Made by a program: the position numbers and the translations under genes
Virus record (IMG/VR): IMGVR_UViG_3300028394_000215
Span: 1-32,138 of that record
From: a virus
Length of the DNA: 32,138 nucleotides
Strand: one strand, 5' to 3'
The notes under the pieces: generated by a model
What the model was told of the DNA's origin: nothing
The model's input: the letters and a program-made list of their open reading frames with translations, nothing else
Database searches by the model: none
In this document: positions 16,533 to 28,377 of the stretch, piece after piece
How positions within the stretch are numbered: position 1 is the stretch's first letter
How the letters are laid out: each line of letters begins with the position of its first letter

Positions 16533-16719
16533 AGACCTACCAAGCACCAGGAAAGAGGTTGTTCTGTTCAAGATACAGGTTCAAGACCTGCTATGCTGGA
16601 AGGAACTGCCAAAGGCTTACTCAACATTGGCAAGTGCAATGGCTAATGTTCCAGATAAGACAGCAAGAATTATGAAGAGGTCGGACAAGGGCTGGGAAAT
16701 TGCCTGGAGCAACCAGTGA
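16522..16719 (+). CDS. Small protein of unknown function
   Basis: This 65-residue protein starts inside the end of the HTH gene and ends by GTGA overlap with the methyltransferase. The sequence LPKAYSTLASAMANVPDKTARIMKRSDKGWEIAW has a helix-turn-helix look with a final wing-like strand. It may be a DNA-binding partner. This is low-resolution inference. Confidence 0.45.
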   Translation: MLIKDLPSTRKEVVLFKIQVQDLLCWKELPKAYSTLASAMANVPDKTARIMKRSDKGWEIAWSNQ

Positions 16720-17462
16720 ACATAGCCTTAATGACTTCAGACAAGCTTATTGGCTTTGTGTCTGGCATGATGCAAGACCAACCCAAAGCAGAAAGGCTTT
16801 GCTGGGAGATGACTAGGCACTACAGGGAAAGAAGCATTGAGCAAACAGACTTTGAAAAGGCATGGCATCAGTCTGTTTCAAATGGGACTCCAGACTATTC
16901 AATATATGATGGTGAAAGGTATGTTCCAGAAGCAACAGCCTGTTATCTTGTGTATGCCAAAAGATACATAAGGACATCTGCAAAATTCATCGAGGGCAAA
17001 TGGCCTGTTAATGAAATATGGGATTTGGGCTGTGGCATTGGAGCATCCACTGCACTGCTCAAACTCATTTTCCCTGGAGCCAATGTGTTTGGAACACAAC
17101 TGCCATCAGACCAGAGGAGAGTTGCTGAAGAGTTATCAAAGACCCATGGCTTTCAAATAGCAGATTTAATGAAAAGCAGTGTTGATGCTGTTGTGTTCAT
17201 GCTTGATTATCTTGAGCATTTTGAATGCCCAACAGAACACCTGGAAACAATCATTGCCCAAAAGCCAAAGTTACTTATAATGGCCAATTCATTTGGAGCA
17301 ACTGCCGTTGGACATTTCCCTAATTATAAAATTGGTTCTGAGAAATATCCAAACAAAGAAACAGGAAGAGCCTTCAGCAAGTGGCTTAAATGCAAAGGGT
17401 ATAAAAAGGTTGAAACAGGATTCTACAACAACAGGCCAGCAATCTGGGAGAGGGCAGAATGA
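16716..17462 (+). CDS. SAM-dependent methyltransferase (class I)
   Basis: This 248-residue protein has motif I DLGCGIGAST at residues 103-112 and a later acidic motif DYLEHFE (about 164-170). The fold is Rossmann-type. It lacks the PCQ motif of C5-cytosine methylases and the (D/N)PPY of N6/N4 methylases, so it may act on a small molecule, a sugar or an already modified base. It directly precedes two genes of a TAGT group, which suggests a hypermodification role. It starts with GTG by a GTGA overlap. Confidence 0.65.
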   Translation: MNIALMTSDKLIGFVSGMMQDQPKAERLCWEMTRHYRERSIEQTDFEKAWHQSVSNGTPDYSIYDGERYVPEATACYLVYAKRYIRTSAKFIEGKWPVNEIWDLGCGIGASTALLKLIFPGANVFGTQLPSDQRRVAEELSKTHGFQIADLMKSSVDAVVFMLDYLEHFECPTEHLETIIAQKPKLLIMANSFGATAVGHFPNYKIGSEKYPNKETGRAFSKWLKCKGYKKVETGFYNNRPAIWERAE

Positions 17463-17863
17463 ACATTGCAAAACAGGCCAGCCTCTTTGGTGCAGAACTT
17501 GAGCTAGACCAAGATGACTCAAAATACTCTACAAAGGTTGAGGCTCCTGTTTATAAGCCAAGTGAAAAGAAGCCACACCTGCTGGAACTTGTGGACATTT
17601 CAAAATCCAACAGCCTAATCAGACAGGTTCTTGCATCAAGCATTCCCCAGGATGAGAAGGAGTTTCTGATTGAGGCGGCCAAGAGGCACAGCGTGTTCAA
17701 CTATGAAAAGATTGCAGACTACTATGCACATGCCTCACCAGAGACCCAGGCACTTATGGAAAAGTCTGCCCTGGTTATCATAGACTTTGGCAAGGCAATT
17801 GAGAGTGGCTATGTGAGGCTGTGTGATGAGATAAGGAACCAGTATCTTGAGCACGCAGAGTGA
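17459..17863 (+). CDS. Conserved partner gene of the TAGT glycosyltransferase
   Basis: This 134-residue helical protein contains KEFLIEAAKRHSVFNYEKIADYYAHASPETQALMEKSALVIIDFGKA in its C-terminal half. I recall similar segments in phage proteins next to modification or ParB-type genes, but no named family fits with certainty. It overlaps the methyltransferase by ATGA and the TAGT start by 17 bases, so the three are co-translated. A role in targeting or regulation of base modification is possible. Confidence 0.5.
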   Translation: MNIAKQASLFGAELELDQDDSKYSTKVEAPVYKPSEKKPHLLELVDISKSNSLIRQVLASSIPQDEKEFLIEAAKRHSVFNYEKIADYYAHASPETQALMEKSALVIIDFGKAIESGYVRLCDEIRNQYLEHAE

Positions 17864-18725
17864 TTTTGCCATCTTCATCCTAACTCATGGTAGGCCAACC
17901 AATATAAAGACCATGGCCACGCTAAAAGATTGTGGCTACACTGGAAAGCTTTACTTGGTGGTTGATGATGAGGACAAGACCCTGGACAAATACATTGCCA
18001 ACTTTGGCAAGGATAGAGTGGTTGTTTTTAATAAGAAAGAGATGGCAGACCAGGTTGATGAGGGAAACAACTTCGATGAAAGAAGGACAATCACTCATGC
18101 CAGGAATGCCTGTTTCAAAATAGCCAAAGACCTTGGCATAAAATACTTCATGGAACTGGACGATGATTATATATCATTTGAATACAGGTATGTGAGCAGG
18201 TGTGGGGAGAAGCTGAAGGTTCACTATGTATCCAACTTGGATGCTGTGCTTGGTCTTTACCTTGAGTTTTATAAGGCAACAGGCTTTTCAAGCATGGCAT
18301 TTGCCCAGGGTGGCGACTTCATTGGTGGTGTTGAAAACAAATATGCAACCAAGAAGCCCCTTATCAGAAAATGCATGAACTCATTTATATGCTCAACAGA
18401 AAGGCCATTCCAATTCATTGGTGCAATGAATGAGGATGTGAATACCTATGTTACCTTGGGCTCGAGGGGAGTGCTATTTGGCACTATTCCCATGATCAGC
18501 CTGGTTCAAACAGCCACTCAGAGTCAGAAGCATGGAATCACTGATATGTATTTGAGGTTTGGAACATACTGCAAGGCTTTCACCACGGTGATGATGCACC
18601 CATCCAGTGTTAGGATTTCCATGATGAATACCAGCAACCCCAGGATTCATCATTTGATTAAGTGGCAGAACACAACCCCAATGATTGTATCAGAGCAATA
18701 TAGGAAGCCTGTGGGTAACTTGTGA
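17847..18725 (+). CDS. TET-associated glycosyltransferase (TAGT)
   Basis: This 292-residue GT-A type enzyme shows the TAGT landmarks in order: ILTHGRP (11-17), VVDDEDK (38-44), ARNACF (85-90), ELDDDY (103-108, a D-x-D type metal/nucleotide-sugar site), MNEDVNTY (194-201), TQSQKHGITDMY (about 224-235) and RIHH (266-269). In phages this family glycosylates hydroxymethylated cytosine in DNA made by a TET/JBP dioxygenase. No dioxygenase is visible here. It starts with TTG, with AAGGAA eight bases upstream; the next in-frame Met codon is 65 bases later. Confidence 0.8.
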   Translation: MSTQSDFAIFILTHGRPTNIKTMATLKDCGYTGKLYLVVDDEDKTLDKYIANFGKDRVVVFNKKEMADQVDEGNNFDERRTITHARNACFKIAKDLGIKYFMELDDDYISFEYRYVSRCGEKLKVHYVSNLDAVLGLYLEFYKATGFSSMAFAQGGDFIGGVENKYATKKPLIRKCMNSFICSTERPFQFIGAMNEDVNTYVTLGSRGVLFGTIPMISLVQTATQSQKHGITDMYLRFGTYCKAFTTVMMHPSSVRISMMNTSNPRIHHLIKWQNTTPMIVSEQYRKPVGNL

Positions 18726-21404: not shown

Positions 21405-21884
21405 ATGAATAAAGAACAAAAATACCCAATGCTAGTTCAGAAAAAAATCTCTGAACTTTTGCCAGCCTCATACAATCCCAGAAAAATTTCCTCAGATGCC
21501 CTGGGCAGATTAACCAAATCTTTGCATGAGTTGGGGAATCTCCAGCCCATTACCTGGAATGCAAAAACAGGCAGGGTTGTTGGAGGACATCAAAGGCTCA
21601 AATGTTATATGGCCATGGGAGTGGATGTTGTGGATGTCTGGGCAGTGTGGCTGGATGAGCAAAAAGAAAAGACAGCAAACATTGCACTGAATAAATTGAG
21701 TGGTGAGTTTGACCTGCCACAACTCAAAGACCTAATTGAGGAGTTAGACACTGGAGAAGTTGATTTAGACATTACAGGGTTTGGTGCTGATGAATTGGCA
21801 GAACTAATGGAACAAACAGCCCCAGAGGATGAGGGCAAAAAAGAAGATGGTGAGAAATGCCAAGCCTGTGGCAAGCCTTTGTGA
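21405..21884 (+). CDS. ParB-like nuclease-domain protein
   Basis: In this 159-residue protein, residues 10-100 form a ParB/Srx-type domain: YNPRK (23-27), LQPITWN, and GRVVGGHQRL (56-65, the G-x-x-R motif), then NKLSGEFD (96-103). GFGADELAELM (residues about 125-135) is the usual linker to a DNA methylase in this family, but here the methylase is absent. The protein instead ends with a small CQACG Cys pair. It may act as DNA-binding or NTP-dependent factor near packaging. The leader is A/T-rich without an SD site. Confidence 0.7.
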   Translation: MNKEQKYPMLVQKKISELLPASYNPRKISSDALGRLTKSLHELGNLQPITWNAKTGRVVGGHQRLKCYMAMGVDVVDVWAVWLDEQKEKTANIALNKLSGEFDLPQLKDLIEELDTGEVDLDITGFGADELAELMEQTAPEDEGKKEDGEKCQACGKPL

Positions 21885-21920: not shown

Positions 21921-22529
21921 ATGATAAGTCAAAAAGAGCTTTGCCAGAAATGGGGCTACAGCCCAGGGCAGGTTTCAAGAATGGTCAAAAGGGGAATGCC
22001 CCTGGAATCAGAAGCTTCAGCCATGAGATGGAGGCTGGAGAATATGAAGATGCCAAAGAAGCACGCCATTCCAATGGAGCCAGCCAAAGAGAACCAGGAA
22101 GAACCAGAGTCAGCAGGTTTTTCTGATGAGGATATATCAGCAACAACAAGCCTGGGCAGAGTTCTTAGGGCAGAAAGAATTGAACTATCAGCGGCCAGGA
22201 AGGTTGGGAAAGCCCTTAAAACAGACAACATCTTCCACATCAAAGCCGCAATCCATGCCCACAATGAAGCAAGGAAAGGATATGAAGATGCCAGGAGATG
22301 CCATGAAGAAGAAAAGACTAGGCTTCGACAAACACTTTCGGCAGACGAAGTTCAAGAAACTCTTTCTAAGTTCCTCTCTCAAATCCGTTCACTACTGGAT
22401 GCTATGCCATCGTCAGTCGCAACCAGGGCAAACCCAAGCGACCCAGAATGTTCCAAAAAAGCAATCCAAGATGCAGTAGATCAATTGATGCTTACAATCC
22501 AAAAAACAGAAGATGAGGCATTCAAATGA
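21921..22529 (+). CDS. Terminase small subunit (Nu1-like)
   Basis: In this 202-residue protein, residues 1-45 (MISQKELCQKWGYSPGQVSRMVKRGMPLES...MRWRLEN) form a Nu1-type winged helix used to bind cos or pac sites. The remainder is a long helical region (EARKGYEDARRCHEEEKTRL), suited to oligomerisation and contact with the large subunit. It lies 0.4 kb upstream of the large terminase. An in-frame TAG just upstream fixes the start at ATG 21921. Confidence 0.65.
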   Translation: MISQKELCQKWGYSPGQVSRMVKRGMPLESEASAMRWRLENMKMPKKHAIPMEPAKENQEEPESAGFSDEDISATTSLGRVLRAERIELSAARKVGKALKTDNIFHIKAAIHAHNEARKGYEDARRCHEEEKTRLRQTLSADEVQETLSKFLSQIRSLLDAMPSSVATRANPSDPECSKKAIQDAVDQLMLTIQKTEDEAFK

Positions 22530-22902: not shown

Positions 22903-24681
22903 ATGAAGCTTGTACCCTTCATGAAAAGCTTCTTGATTCCCAAGAAGCAATTATCAATTTCAGAATGGTGTGAGCAGAGCTTGGTTCTTTCACCAAGAAT
23001 CACAAACATTCCAGGCCCGTATAGCACAAATCTTACTCCCTATGTGAGGGAGCCCCTGGAGGCTTTTGGGAATGATTCTGTTAGGAGAATTACTCTGGTG
23101 TGGGGAGCCCAGACATCCAAGACAACCACAATTCTTGCAGGGCTTTCCTACAGGCTGGCAGTTGAACCATGCCCAGCACTTTGGGTAATGCCATCTGAAG
23201 CACTGGCAAGATCATTCTCAGAAACCAGGTGGTTGCCAATGGTGGACGATTGCCCAATTCTGGCAAAGGAAAAGCCAGAGAATACAGATAAAATAAAGAT
23301 ACTCGAACAGCACTTTAGAAAAATGAGCCTTTGGTTTGTGGGCTCAAACAGCCCAGCCAATCTTTCCTCCAGATCAGTTTCACTTTTGATGCTCGATGAG
23401 GTTGATAAATTTTCTGATGGCACAAATTCAAAAGAGGCTGGAGCATTGCAGTTGGCAGAAGCCAGAGTTGCAACATATCCAAACCATTTTGTTGTTTCCA
23501 CCAGCACACCAACCACAGCAGATTCAATCATCTGGGCAGAGTGGCAGAAGGGAGACATGAGATTCTTCTTTGTTCCATGCCCCCATTGTGGACACAAACA
23601 AAAGCTTATTTGGGAGAGGGTGAAGTGGGATGAAAAGGCAAAGCTTGAAGATGGAGTGTATGACTTTGGGATTGTGAAAAATTCAGCCTACTATGAATGT
23701 GAAAACTGCCAGAAGCCAATTAGGGATGGACACAAAACAATGATGTTGAGGCAGGGTGAGTGGAGACCAACCAACCCCAAGGGTGAGCCAGGCAGAAGGT
23801 CATATCATTTGAATGGCCTATACCCACCGTGGGTAACCTTTGGAAGCCTGGCAGTTAAATTCCTACAGGACAAGCACAGCGGAATCATAGGGCTACAGGA
23901 CTTTGTGAACAGGGTTCTTGCAGAACCATGGATGGAGCATGACCAGGAGAGGATAGAGATTATACCAGGCAAATATAAACTTGGTGAAGTGAACATGGGT
24001 GAGAAGCTTGTCATGGCCTGTGACATTCAAGAGGCCGGCGGCTTCCATGCCTGGTGTGTTGTGAGGGCTTGGGACATGGACGGGAAAAGCAGATTGGTGT
24101 GGGCTGGGAGGCTTGAAACCTGGGGAGACATCAAGGCCAAGGCAGATGAGTTTAATGTTGAGCCTAAAGCAACCTTTATTGATTCTGGTGACCAAACCCG
24201 TGATGTTTATTTGCATTGTTGCCAATGGGGTTTTATTGCCCTGGTTGGTTCAGACAAATCAAGCTTCTCAGAGATTGTTGGGGAGCAGAGAGTTCAAAGA
24301 CCATTTGCCAGGATTGCAAATGGAGACCCATTCAGTGGAAAGAATGTTGGCTCCAGGGAGGGCTGGAAATGGAAGCTTTGCCCAGTTTGGAGATGGTCAA
24401 ACCCAGCCATTAAAGACATCCTCTCCAACCTTTTGAAAACTGATGGATTTATTGCAGAAGATACACCAGAGGTTTGGAAGGTTCACATTTCATCTGAAAC
24501 AAAGGTGGAGGTTAGGAATCCCATGACGGGCAGAACCAGGAGGGTGTGGAAGCAGATAGGCAAGCACAACCACTTACTTGATTGTGAGTGCATGGCCATT
24601 GTGGGTGCGGCTTTGCATAAGAGGCTGAAGATCATGCCCGCAGGCTTGACAGAGGAGATTGAGAATAATGGCGAAGGGTGA
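22903..24681 (+). CDS. Terminase large subunit (GpA type)
   Basis: This 592-residue ATPase-nuclease has IPGPYSTNLTPYVREPLEAF early (typical of lambda gpA-like terminases), Walker A-like GAQTSKTT (68-75) and Walker B LLMLDEVDKF (161-170). STSTPT near 210 is the coupling motif. A zinc finger at about 225-275 (CPHCG...CENC) matches the GpA family. The C-terminal nuclease region has MACDIQEAGGFH and FIDSGDQT. It moves DNA into the capsid with ATP and cuts it. The 3' end carries the TTGACA for the next gene. Confidence 0.9.
   Translation: MKLVPFMKSFLIPKKQLSISEWCEQSLVLSPRITNIPGPYSTNLTPYVREPLEAFGNDSVRRITLVWGAQTSKTTTILAGLSYRLAVEPCPALWVMPSEALARSFSETRWLPMVDDCPILAKEKPENTDKIKILEQHFRKMSLWFVGSNSPANLSSRSVSLLMLDEVDKFSDGTNSKEAGALQLAEARVATYPNHFVVSTSTPTTADSIIWAEWQKGDMRFFFVPCPHCGHKQKLIWERVKWDEKAKLEDGVYDFGIVKNSAYYECENCQKPIRDGHKTMMLRQGEWRPTNPKGEPGRRSYHLNGLYPPWVTFGSLAVKFLQDKHSGIIGLQDFVNRVLAEPWMEHDQERIEIIPGKYKLGEVNMGEKLVMACDIQEAGGFHAWCVVRAWDMDGKSRLVWAGRLETWGDIKAKADEFNVEPKATFIDSGDQTRDVYLHCCQWGFIALVGSDKSSFSEIVGEQRVQRPFARIANGDPFSGKNVGSREGWKWKLCPVWRWSNPAIKDILSNLLKTDGFIAEDTPEVWKVHISSETKVEVRNPMTGRTRRVWKQIGKHNHLLDCECMAIVGAALHKRLKIMPAGLTEEIENNGEG
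24646..24651 (+). promoter_or_regulatory. TTGACA element before the gpW-like gene
   Basis: TTGACA lies inside the end of the large terminase gene and ends 16 bases before ATG 24668. GAGGAG is in the spacer. A copy inside coding sequence at the right spacing argues for function. Confidence 0.5.
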
Positions 24682-24904
24682 TTTCATTGGCTTACCCATC
24701 GCCACCTTAAATTCCCTGCGTGACAAGTATGTTTCATGTCTAGAGGCAATTGCGGTGGCTGGTGCAAGTTATTCAATTGCTGGAAGATCATTCAGCAGGG
24801 CAAACCTGTCTGAGGTTAGAGAAATTATTGCTGAATTGACTCTTGCCATTCAGTCTGCATCTGGCACAAGAATTAGAACCACCTATGCAAAATTCGGCCC
24901 ATGA
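24668..24904 (+). CDS. gpW-like head-tail joining protein
   Basis: This 78-residue protein has SLRDKYVSCLEAIAVAGASYSIAGRSFSRANLSEVREIIAELTLAIQSAS, like lambda gpW: helix, beta turn with G-R-x-x-(S/T), helix. gpW plugs the capsid portal and joins the tail. In the GpA-type phages it lies between terminase and portal, as here. It overlaps both neighbours, and the start is supported by TTGACA at the usual spacing. Confidence 0.7.
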   Translation: MAKGDFIGLPIATLNSLRDKYVSCLEAIAVAGASYSIAGRSFSRANLSEVREIIAELTLAIQSASGTRIRTTYAKFGP

Positions 24905-27900
24905 AGCTTAAACAAACATTCCTGGATAAGCTTGTTTCATTTGTAAATCCCCAGGCTGGGGTTCAAAGGCTGATGGCAAAAAAAGCCCTTACCAAGTTTG
25001 AATATGATGCAGTAAAATACACTAGGGAAAGACGCGGTCCGAGCAATCTATCTGGTGCAGAGGACTTTAGATCAAATTATGATCGTGTAGAGTTGATGAA
25101 GAGGGCAAGAGACCTGGCAGAAAACAATGGTCTGGTTCGCTCCATATTGATGAAGTTTGCAAGCCATGTTGCATCAAACATTACATACCAATCCAGGACA
25201 GATAACCCCAAGGCCAACACAGAGATTGAGGCATACTGGAATGAATGGTTTGATAATTGTGACCTATCAACCAGGCACACAGGCTCAACCCTTATGCAAG
25301 TTGCAACCATGTCCATGCTCCGTGATGGCGATTTTCTTTTTGTATTGGTCAGAGATAAGAATGGAGACTTAAAACTCCAGGGTATTGAATCTGATAGACT
25401 CGGTGACCCATACAAAACTTATACAAGCCTAGAGCTTATTGGTGGCATTCATATTGATAGGGACACTGGCGCCCCCACTGCTTATGATATTTACAATCGT
25501 AGCATTGGGGATTTCTATTCCTACCAAGTAACCATTTCAGCCAGCCAGGCATTCCACTATTTTGACCCACTCAGAATTGACCAATACAGGGGCGTGTCTG
25601 CTTTCCACACTGCCATCAATGATGCCACTGATATTTATGACATTGTGAATTTTGAGAAGCTGGCCGCCAAGGTTGCCAGTTCCCAGAGTGCAGTTGTGAA
25701 GAGGTCAAACAACAACGCCTCCGACCTTAGTGCCTTAACCACAGAGGAAAACTTTGATAACCAACAAATCAAGCTAGAATCAATGGAATCTGGCAAGGTT
25801 AGCTATTTGGAGCCAGGAGAGGACATCATTTTCCCAGACGGCCCCAGCAGACCCAGTGGAGCCTTTGCAGAGTTTCATAAAATCTTATTGAGAAATATCT
25901 GCATGGGACTTGGAATCCCCTACTCCTTTGCTGTCGACCCATCTGCCATGTCCGGCCCCACAGCCAGGCTTGAAATGCAACAGGCTGGAAGAACTTTTAA
26001 CAGATACCAGAAGCTACTTAATGATAAGGTTCTGAATCCAATCAAGAACATTGTTATTGCTGATGGTGTAGCCAGGGGAATGATCAGTGGCAATGGAGCC
26101 AAAACAACCAAGGGCATTTTCAATTTTGGAGCCAATGTTTCTATCGACCTCGGACGGGAATCTATGGCAAACATTGCAGAGTTTAAGGCTGGACTGACCA
26201 CAGCAAGCTCAATCTATGCAGAGAAGGGGCTGGATGTTGAAGCGGCCTTTAGGGCAAGAGCCATTGAGACCAAGATGATTCAAGACCTGGCAAAGGAATA
26301 TGGAGTTCCAGCCCAAGCGGTTTCTGAAATTCTTTTGCCCACAGGCCAGCCAGCACAGGCAGGGCAACCAGGACAAACAACCCAAGACGGCCAGCAGGTG
26401 GAAGGCCAAGAGGATGTTATTGGGCAAAGCCTCAATGGAGCCCAGGTTGCTTCCCTCATCAATGTCATCAATGCAGTGGCGGCTGGTGCATTGTCCAAGG
26501 AGGGTGCAGTTTCAGTTATCACGGCCGCCTTCCCAACCATTTCAAGGGAACAGGCCATTGGCATTGTTGCTGGTGTGCAGTCTGGAAAAATCATTCCAAC
26601 CACAGAAAAAGAAAAGCAAGCCGCCCAAGATGGACAACAGGATGAAGGCCGGGGTGGGGCTCCAGTTCCAGCAACACCTAAAGCCCCAGTTGCACCTACA
26701 GGCTTAGAGGAGTTGAAGTGCCCACTACCAACTCAAGATGTAAAACTCAATCTTGAGAATAGACAGACAGCAGTTGATAAGGCCAATTACGGCCCAGCAA
26801 ATCCTAACGAACCCAATGAGAGCTACTGGAAAGCCAAGGCCAATGAGTTCCAGGGTGATGTTGCAACTGCAAAGAAAATGCTCTGTGGCAATTGCGCCGC
26901 ATTCAACCAAACCAGCAAACTACTGGGTTGCATCAAAAATGGAATTGGTGAAGATGCCAATGAAGTAGCACTGGGTGGGAACCTTGGATATTGTGAAATT
27001 TTTGATTTTAAATGTGCGGCCAAAAGAACCTGCGATGCCTGGATTGTTGGCGGCCCGATGACAGATAAAAAAAAACAAGCTGAACAAGCCCTATCAAGCC
27101 TAAGCCAACAAGAGCTTAAAATGCTCATTGCTGGAATGATGGGTGGCATTGAGTTGGGCAAGTATGATGGGATTGATTTTACACCACCAGAAGGAGCCAG
27201 GGAGTCGGCCAAGAGGGCTTTGGATGTAAGGGAAGAGAAACCAGCCAGCCAAAAGGGAATGACGCCTGTGGGCATTGCCAGGGCTAGGGATTTGATCAAT
27301 GGGGTTAAGTTCTCTCCAGACACCGTCCGCAGAATGAAGGCATTCTTTGATCGCCATGAAGTCGATAAGAAGGGTGAAACTTGGGATGAGCAGGGTAAGG
27401 GCTGGCAAGCCTGGAATGGGTGGGGTGGTGATGCTGGCTATTCCTGGGCAAAGAAAGTTGTTGGCCAGATGGAGTCAAGAGACAAGAACCTTTCAGAACC
27501 AAAAGATGAAACTGAATTTGCTGACGACAAAGAGATTCTAAACCCATGCGGGATGAAGGACGATGGAACTTTTGATGATAAGAATACCTGTTCTTCTGGC
27601 TATGGAAGGCCAAAGCTTGTTGGTGGATATAGCCCCAAGAGACCAGGGGGCAAAATCATTGCAAAGCCAGCCCCTCCAGCACCCAAGCCACCCGCTCCTC
27701 CTCCGCCTCCTCCTCCTTCTGCACCCACAGGCAAAACCCCTCCACCCCCATCTAAAACTCCTTCACAAGAAAAAGAAGGAAGAAATACATCTGTTAAGAA
27801 AAAGAAGGCTGTTGAAAAGGTTGAGAATGAACTTCTAAAAATGGGCATTAAATATGTTGATTTGCCAGATCATATTGACGCCGCAAAACTTATACAAAAA

Positions 27901-28377
27901 GAAGTGGCCGACCTTCAGAAGGCTGGATATGGAACACCTAAAAGCCTTGGCAGAGGAATGCTTATGGGCAGTTCGGTTGCCTGGGCAACAGGCAGAAGCA
28001 ATTATCAAGAGGTTGAATTTAATCATGCTAAAGGTGCAAGATATAGACAGATTACAGAGTTTTCTGATTCCATCGAGCTTTCAGTTAAATCTGGCCATTG
28101 GGCTTCTCCAAGCGTTGTTGCACATGAGCACGGGCATTCACTCCATGGACAAATAATTGGCAGAGATGGGTTTCAAAACATTTGGACATGGAGCAAGTTA
28201 CCCAAAGAGCAACGAGCCAGGATTAGGCCATTGGCGGCCAAGGTAAGCAGATATGCCACCACAGACCCACTGGAATTTGTGGCTGAAACTTTTGCTGGAC
28301 ACACGGCTGGGAAAAGATATTCTAAGGATATATATGACGCCTACAACGAGCTCCGAGGGCCGAAGCTGAAATTCTAG
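24901..28377 (+). CDS. Portal protein fused to a metallopeptidase domain
   Basis: Residues 1-470 of this 1158-residue protein are a lambda-type portal (NGLVRSILMKFASHV; PYSFAVDPSAMSGPTARLEM). A Gln-rich hinge follows. Residues about 605-715 hold a Cys-rich region (C607, C662, C665, C677, C698, C705, C711). Residues 785-855 carry a small domain (GIARARDLINGVKFSPDTVR...WGGDAGYSWA). Residues 922-955 are a Pro-rich linker. Residues 960-1158 hold HEHGH (1075-1079), a HExxH zinc site, and E1125/E1129 as likely third ligand. The portal forms the DNA channel; the peptidase tail may act in head maturation or as a toxin. Ordinary portals are 500-600 residues. Confidence 0.8.
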   Translation: MKLKQTFLDKLVSFVNPQAGVQRLMAKKALTKFEYDAVKYTRERRGPSNLSGAEDFRSNYDRVELMKRARDLAENNGLVRSILMKFASHVASNITYQSRTDNPKANTEIEAYWNEWFDNCDLSTRHTGSTLMQVATMSMLRDGDFLFVLVRDKNGDLKLQGIESDRLGDPYKTYTSLELIGGIHIDRDTGAPTAYDIYNRSIGDFYSYQVTISASQAFHYFDPLRIDQYRGVSAFHTAINDATDIYDIVNFEKLAAKVASSQSAVVKRSNNNASDLSALTTEENFDNQQIKLESMESGKVSYLEPGEDIIFPDGPSRPSGAFAEFHKILLRNICMGLGIPYSFAVDPSAMSGPTARLEMQQAGRTFNRYQKLLNDKVLNPIKNIVIADGVARGMISGNGAKTTKGIFNFGANVSIDLGRESMANIAEFKAGLTTASSIYAEKGLDVEAAFRARAIETKMIQDLAKEYGVPAQAVSEILLPTGQPAQAGQPGQTTQDGQQVEGQEDVIGQSLNGAQVASLINVINAVAAGALSKEGAVSVITAAFPTISREQAIGIVAGVQSGKIIPTTEKEKQAAQDGQQDEGRGGAPVPATPKAPVAPTGLEELKCPLPTQDVKLNLENRQTAVDKANYGPANPNEPNESYWKAKANEFQGDVATAKKMLCGNCAAFNQTSKLLGCIKNGIGEDANEVALGGNLGYCEIFDFKCAAKRTCDAWIVGGPMTDKKKQAEQALSSLSQQELKMLIAGMMGGIELGKYDGIDFTPPEGARESAKRALDVREEKPASQKGMTPVGIARARDLINGVKFSPDTVRRMKAFFDRHEVDKKGETWDEQGKGWQAWNGWGGDAGYSWAKKVVGQMESRDKNLSEPKDETEFADDKEILNPCGMKDDGTFDDKNTCSSGYGRPKLVGGYSPKRPGGKIIAKPAPPAPKPPAPPPPPPPSAPTGKTPPPPSKTPSQEKEGRNTSVKKKKAVEKVENELLKMGIKYVDLPDHIDAAKLIQKEVADLQKAGYGTPKSLGRGMLMGSSVAWATGRSNYQEVEFNHAKGARYRQITEFSDSIELSVKSGHWASPSVVAHEHGHSLHGQIIGRDGFQNIWTWSKLPKEQRARIRPLAAKVSRYATTDPLEFVAETFAGHTAGKRYSKDIYDAYNELRGPKLKF

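Follow-up and report, generated by a model that had tools for sequence, protein, structure and literature searches.

We found that the TAGT glycosyltransferase of this phage has an obligate partner, a protein of 134 residues whose domain we name TPD, and that TAGTs linked to TPD are without TET in every record searched, as TET-linked loci are without TPD. The TPD-TAGT pair probably decorates viral DNA with a sugar, and does so without TET. With somewhat better than even confidence, we regard it as a TET-independent DNA glycosylation module that is tethered by a ParB-like domain or by the sliding clamp and has optional sugar tailoring.

The window, i.e. the whole stretch of DNA analysed, is the entire deposited record, a linear viral contig of 32,138 bases; it has no terminal repeat and is a linear fragment. 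Its three overlapping genes run in the same direction, as a preliminary description of this DNA had reported, and the overlaps measure 4 bp and 17 bp. The features that bear on the argument are:

16716-17462, plus strand: methyltransferase gene, GTG start, 248 amino acids
17459-17863, plus strand: TPD (134-residue protein), ATG start, overlapping the methyltransferase gene by 4 bp
17474-17488, plus strand: QASLF, predicted sliding-clamp-binding peptide, TPD residues 6-10
17847-18725, plus strand: TAGT, TTG start, 292 amino acids, 17-bp overlap with the TPD gene, AGGA upstream
21405-21884, plus strand: standalone ParB-like N-terminal domain, 159 amino acids (PHROG 620 residues 4-148, E 5e-39; weak ParB_N match, E 0.0016)
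21921-22529, plus strand: terminase small subunit (PHROG 57, E 1.5e-9)
22903-24681, plus strand: terminase large subunit (PHROG 15, E 2e-116)

Relative to L004, a related locus, 73 of 98 substitutions in the TAGT gene and 39 of 60 in the gene for the 134-residue protein fall at codon position 3, an excess indicating that both genes are real. No DNA match to the whole three-gene unit was found in phage records.

The protein starting at 17847, which the preliminary description had identified as a TAGT, matches PF20691 (E 1.1e-33; 117.4 bits against a curated cut-off of 27.5 bits; 202 of 205 positions) and PHROG 842 (E 9e-63). Its predicted structure (pLDDT 91.7) has a GT-A fold, with Z scores of 11.7-13.6 for broad, near-tied matches to solved GT-A structures. 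An LDDDY motif (D105-D107) corresponds to the nucleotide-sugar/metal site, with D106-D107 invariant and D105 nearly so, and E196-D197 of an NEDVN motif are conserved. On sequence and structural model, we assign the protein as a true member of PF20691, with a GT-A fold, the aspartate motif and a putative activity of transfer to DNA. Polypeptide GalNAc-transferases and POMGnT1 are among the solved folds closest to the model. Given this likeness to protein O-glycosyltransferases, the leading rival to DNA glycosylation is that TPD-TAGT adds sugar to a DNA-bound phage or host protein (e.g. terminase, ParB, capsid or clamp), which would suit both the usual position of TPD-TAGT units just before terminase genes and the failure of our searches to find a base-hydroxylating enzyme. 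However, the fold matches are too broad and near-tied to single out protein substrates, the PF20691 members of T2/T6 act on DNA-linked glucose according to a study of T4 glucosyltransferases (PMC13216743), and the same genomic slot is occupied by DNA-modifying TET clusters and DNA methylases. We consider protein glycosylation unlikely.

The case for an obligate partner comes from 272 loci, retrieved with TAGT as query (viral contigs and prokaryote genomes), with TPD as query (viral contigs) or from isolate phages. Of these, 267 are testable, drawn from bacterial, archaeal-virus and prophage sources, and every one has TPD next to TAGT; in the other five, which lack TPD, TAGT is at the contig edge. 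Conversely, loci fetched with the TPD profile contain TAGT in 80 of 80 cases, adjacent to TPD in 77. We conclude that the 134-residue protein is a real obligate partner of TAGT. The preliminary description had recognized it as conserved and had listed it with the methyltransferase; the first stands as a partner, and the second is an optional accessory (see below). In one short contig (L122), TPD and TAGT occur in two places as an inverted duplication, which is probably an assembly artefact.

Hosts of the pair include Enterobacteriaceae, Bacteroidota, Veillonella and Clostridia, and haloarchaea by way of HHTV-2. This range bears on whether TAGT acts instead on host-surface polysaccharide, in serotype conversion or superinfection exclusion, as might be suggested by matches of the GT-A model to cellulose synthase and chondroitin polymerase and by sugar epimerases nearby. 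We regard this as the most improbable of the readings, since phages of Gram-negative and Gram-positive bacteria and the haloarchaeal HHTV-2 have no surface glycan in common, and since the partner has a ParB-like domain or a clamp motif. The pair is also found in coliphage vB_EcoS-666R9, which has a Rac-like gene set (ParB-TPD and TAGT at L082:20903-22619), and in E. coli E69 (ParB-TPD and TAGT, L090); Rac-type E. coli phages and prophages would be a convenient laboratory system. T4-like Vibrio phage pv27 (L087:5462-6888) and its relatives L270 and L271 likewise have TPD and TAGT, with an additional epimerase and methyltransferase in L271.

TPD has no Pfam family, no PDB fold match and no known cofactor motif: a Pfam scan of 81 members, a PDB sequence search and Foldseek returned chance-level matches only. 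The structural model (pLDDT 81, over 90 in the core) consists of a disordered N-terminus and a helical core, and residues Y23, Y32, R76, E101 and D109 are invariant. These residues, and the failure to find TPD and TET together, are compatible with an unrecognised hydroxylase, either TPD itself or a host enzyme, that would make the acceptor hydroxyl for a 5hmC- or 5hmU-like chemistry without TET. We think this improbable, given that TPD is a small helical domain with no known cofactor motif or fold and that generic 2OG-oxygenase_3 was found in 0 of 22 records, a type of model that more divergent oxygenases could escape.

Most of the phages, namely isolates and the majority of prophages, have TPD as the rear part of a fusion with a ParB-like N-terminal domain. 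TPD stands alone in the window's clade, and the window protein matches only the tail (residues 156-215 of 217) of PHROG 620, annotated as a ParB-like partition protein; the ParB N-terminal domain, absent from the 134-residue protein by this match, has a gene of its own at 21405-21884, shortly ahead of the terminase genes. The preliminary description had overlooked this gene, as well as the obligate status of TPD and the dispensability of the methyltransferase. A Q..[LM]F peptide starts 72 of the 92 standalone TPDs that have their own start, and nine more have variants of it, compared with 11 of 2189 neighbouring ORFs (0.5%) and a mean of 1.6 in shuffled sequences; since standalone TPDs come mostly from related phages, these motif counts are not independent. 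Among 163 fused or long ORFs the peptide occurs in two, both of which are over-extended standalone ORFs. Roughly one in eight standalone TPDs, including that of pv27, lacks the clamp motif. Gln and Phe are fixed in the peptide and positions 2 and 3 vary, a pattern shared with the bacterial sliding-clamp-binding consensus Q-L-x-L-F, which is a weak one (PMC4549789). The window has QASLF, with Ala rather than the consensus Leu at position 2, inside TPD residues 1-19, which are largely below pLDDT 50 and hence predicted to be disordered. We predict from these features that QASLF is a sliding-clamp-binding peptide in a disordered region. Along the TAGT tree, the tether state changes about 10 times, and the clamp state at least three times as judged from supported branches.

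Coupling of a DNA glycosyltransferase to a replication sliding clamp has a parallel in T4, whose alpha-glucosyltransferase co-purifies with the T4 clamp gp45, an interaction that does not set the alpha/beta ratio, according to the same study (PMC13216743). The T4 enzyme differs in having a GT-B fold, binding the clamp directly and needing 5hmC, whereas here a separate adaptor bears the predicted motif. ParB-like domains are not confined to TPD; they occur in TET clusters (see below) and fused to N6/N4 DNA methylases, which suggests that the ParB domain is a targeting part in general use and TPD a tail specific to this type of TAGT. One such methylase fusion lies on a TAGT-bearing contig (L030:5438-6616).

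The methyltransferase of the window has a generic class-I SAM fold (Methyltransf_11, E 4e-4) with a DLGCGIG motif. No match to PF00145, the C5-methylase family, was found in the window, in line with the preliminary view that the enzyme is not of the C5 type. Its family was found in 10 loci, always beside TPD or TAGT, positioned either ahead of TPD or in the interval from TPD to TAGT, and its presence changes state seven times on the TAGT tree. A relative with 95-96% DNA identity, L002, lacks exactly the methyltransferase gene, without a scar; the junction in L002 is at TGAACAT, and two copies of TGAACAT flank the gene in the window. With only 10 loci and its absence from a near-identical relative, we rejected the methyltransferase as a core partner, and conclude that it is an optional, mobile cassette. 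PDB profile matches gave no specific substrate, being to generic small-molecule, peptide and protein methyltransferases at E 5e-4 or weaker; the enzyme probably tailors the sugar or the substrate.

Other genes vary in a similar manner. We identified an NDP-sugar epimerase/dehydratase-like gene in 13 loci, a radical-SAM gene in about 10 and clear tandem TAGTs in eight; variation of this kind is what diversification of the sugar would look like. In L108, L109, L135, L138-L141, L152 and L176, a gene downstream of TAGT encodes a radical-SAM protein that has additional cysteines at its C-terminus and may tailor the sugar or a base. Diverged tandem TAGT paralogues lie between TPD and the best-scoring TAGT in L126, L135, L147 and L152; L147 has as many as four ORF pieces. 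At L109:6498-7901 and L158:6339-7730, the TAGT reading frame is extended at its N-terminus by a P-loop kinase-like domain. This domain weakly resembles the kinase of mycobacteriophage TET clusters; the case for kinship with 5hmU kinases is weak, as hhalign gave a probability of 39% and Ploopntkinase3 was not matched significantly.

The preliminary description took as its premise a joint action of TAGTs and TET enzymes, saw no TET in the window, and suggested either that the dioxygenase lies in a missing part of the genome or that the phage uses another route to a sugar-bearing base. A search of the window with PF12851 (TET/JBP) was indeed empty. The proposed check for TET/JBP and C5-methylase genes was run on other TAGT-bearing records. 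We detected TET in none of 102 of them (54, then a further 48). Seven of these are isolate phages whose deposits are labelled complete, and two are contigs of the window's clade, L058 and L038, that carry exact repeats at their termini (102 and 55 bp). As 398 Pseudomonadota genomes, the intended positive control, gave no TET match, we took mycobacteriophages as the control; the TETs of Nigel and Zemanar were found at E 4-5e-8, which is below Pfam's cut-off and far inside the thresholds used. A C5-methylase was matched, partially, in one of 54 TAGT-bearing records. The thymidylate-synthase family, which includes dCMP hydroxymethylase, was not found in the window and was present in one of 54 records, that of pv27. 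Thus, the searches of TAGT records for TET, thymidylate-synthase-family and 2OG-oxygenase genes revealed no source of an acceptor hydroxyl.

These results weigh against the standard pathway, in which TET/JBP and a C5-methylase would be encoded in the unsequenced part of the genome or by the host and TAGT would add sugar to 5hmC. The window is a linear fragment without a terminal repeat, and TAGTs adjacent to TET do exist (L293 and L296); however, with no TET match even in the isolates deposited as complete, and a C5-methylase match in only one of 54 records, this pathway is very unlikely. The premise fails for the TPD-linked subfamily, and of the two options the other route is favoured. TPD-type TAGTs also separate from TET-type TAGTs and the T6 enzymes on a branch with 98% support, to be read with caution for long branches.

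The contexts of TAGTs were reportedly defined by Iyer et al. in 2013. In Zemanar, a ParB-domain gene overlaps the TET gene, and ADDT, a P-loop nucleotide kinase and terminase come next. Of 18 TET loci, all have the ParB-domain gene ahead of TET, 17 have the P-loop kinase (L295, the exception, is truncated) and none has TPD; TAGT adjoins TET in two of nine TET records tested (L293 and L296). The phage TET/JBP clusters (Zemanar, Nigel) thus resemble the TPD-TAGT unit in having a ParB-domain gene that overlaps the gene of the first modification enzyme, with terminase close downstream, and in two cases a TAGT, but differ in having TET, often with ADDT and the P-loop kinase, and a ParB tail that is not TPD. 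The T2/T6 beta-glucosyl-HMC-alpha-glucosyltransferase is likewise a phage-encoded member of PF20691 and PHROG 842 with a DNA-linked substrate. In contrast to the window enzyme, it lies beside a thymidylate-synthase-family gene (dCMP hydroxymethylase), without TPD, and it escapes the TAGT profile of the window's clade. With no TET/JBP or C5-methylase match in the window, the unit does not fit the TET-TAGT cytosine hypermodification type, and with no dCMP hydroxymethylase match there, it does not fit the T-even hydroxymethylcytosine glucosylation type.

In 198 of 272 loci, TAGT is followed by a same-strand gene for the terminase large subunit, at a median distance of 696 bp, and terminase lies within 3 kb of TAGT in 44 of 50, 45 of 53 and 16 of 19 loci in three sets. 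The corresponding figure in the window's own clade is only 12 of 49, and with this loose spacing gene order at most suggests a link of TPD-TAGT units to packaging.

In the mechanism that we infer, TAGT would move sugar from a nucleotide-sugar onto the phage's own DNA, the putative acceptor. The main argument for DNA as substrate is contextual, namely that the unit shares its genomic slot and layout with known base-modification clusters. TPD would bind TAGT and bring it to replicating or ParB-bound DNA; in this phage the N-terminal QASLF of TPD may dock on the replication sliding clamp of the host, and in most relatives the fused ParB-like domain would be the DNA tether. The methyltransferase would act as an optional tailoring enzyme, probably on the transferred sugar, and newly made DNA would be marked or protected before packaging. 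More tentatively, and at well under even odds, TPD-TAGT may glycosylate an unmodified DNA base, or the backbone, directly, with no prior hydroxymethylation or oxidation, which would constitute a new class of modification targeted by ParB or clamp.

The puzzle of the solitary TAGT is already in print: 288 of 753 glycosyltransferase-bearing phage genomes have a TAGT without an alpha- or beta-glucosyltransferase, and novel transferases are suspected, while the available portion of that article reports neither TPD nor ParB, clamp motif or methyltransferase (PMC13216743). Apart from Iyer et al. 2013, the obligate TPD partner, the swap between ParB domain and clamp peptide, and the mobile methyltransferase cassette appear to be new to the literature; a survey of archaeal viruses yielded no mention of a glycosyltransferase or ParB for HHTV-2. 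Solitary TAGTs thereby gain an obligate partner, a logic for their tethering to DNA and, as a minimal unit, two genes that occur in phages available from collections (Lactobacillus phages jlb1 and c5, haloarchaeal virus HHTV-2, Nocardia phage NTR1 and Rac-like coliphages). If DNA is glycosylated, a DNA-modification chemistry that involves neither TET nor hydroxymethylases would be widespread among ordinary phages of 30-50 kb, the modification may evade restriction and CRISPR, and TPD-TAGT would be a useful labelling enzyme.

Elsewhere in the window, we identified a calcineurin-like metallophosphoesterase gene mid-phage (10901-11641; PF00149, PHROG 221) and the gene for a portal protein of 1158 residues with a very long C-terminal extension (24901-28377), residues 754-860 of which match PHROG 2859, a family with no function assigned there.
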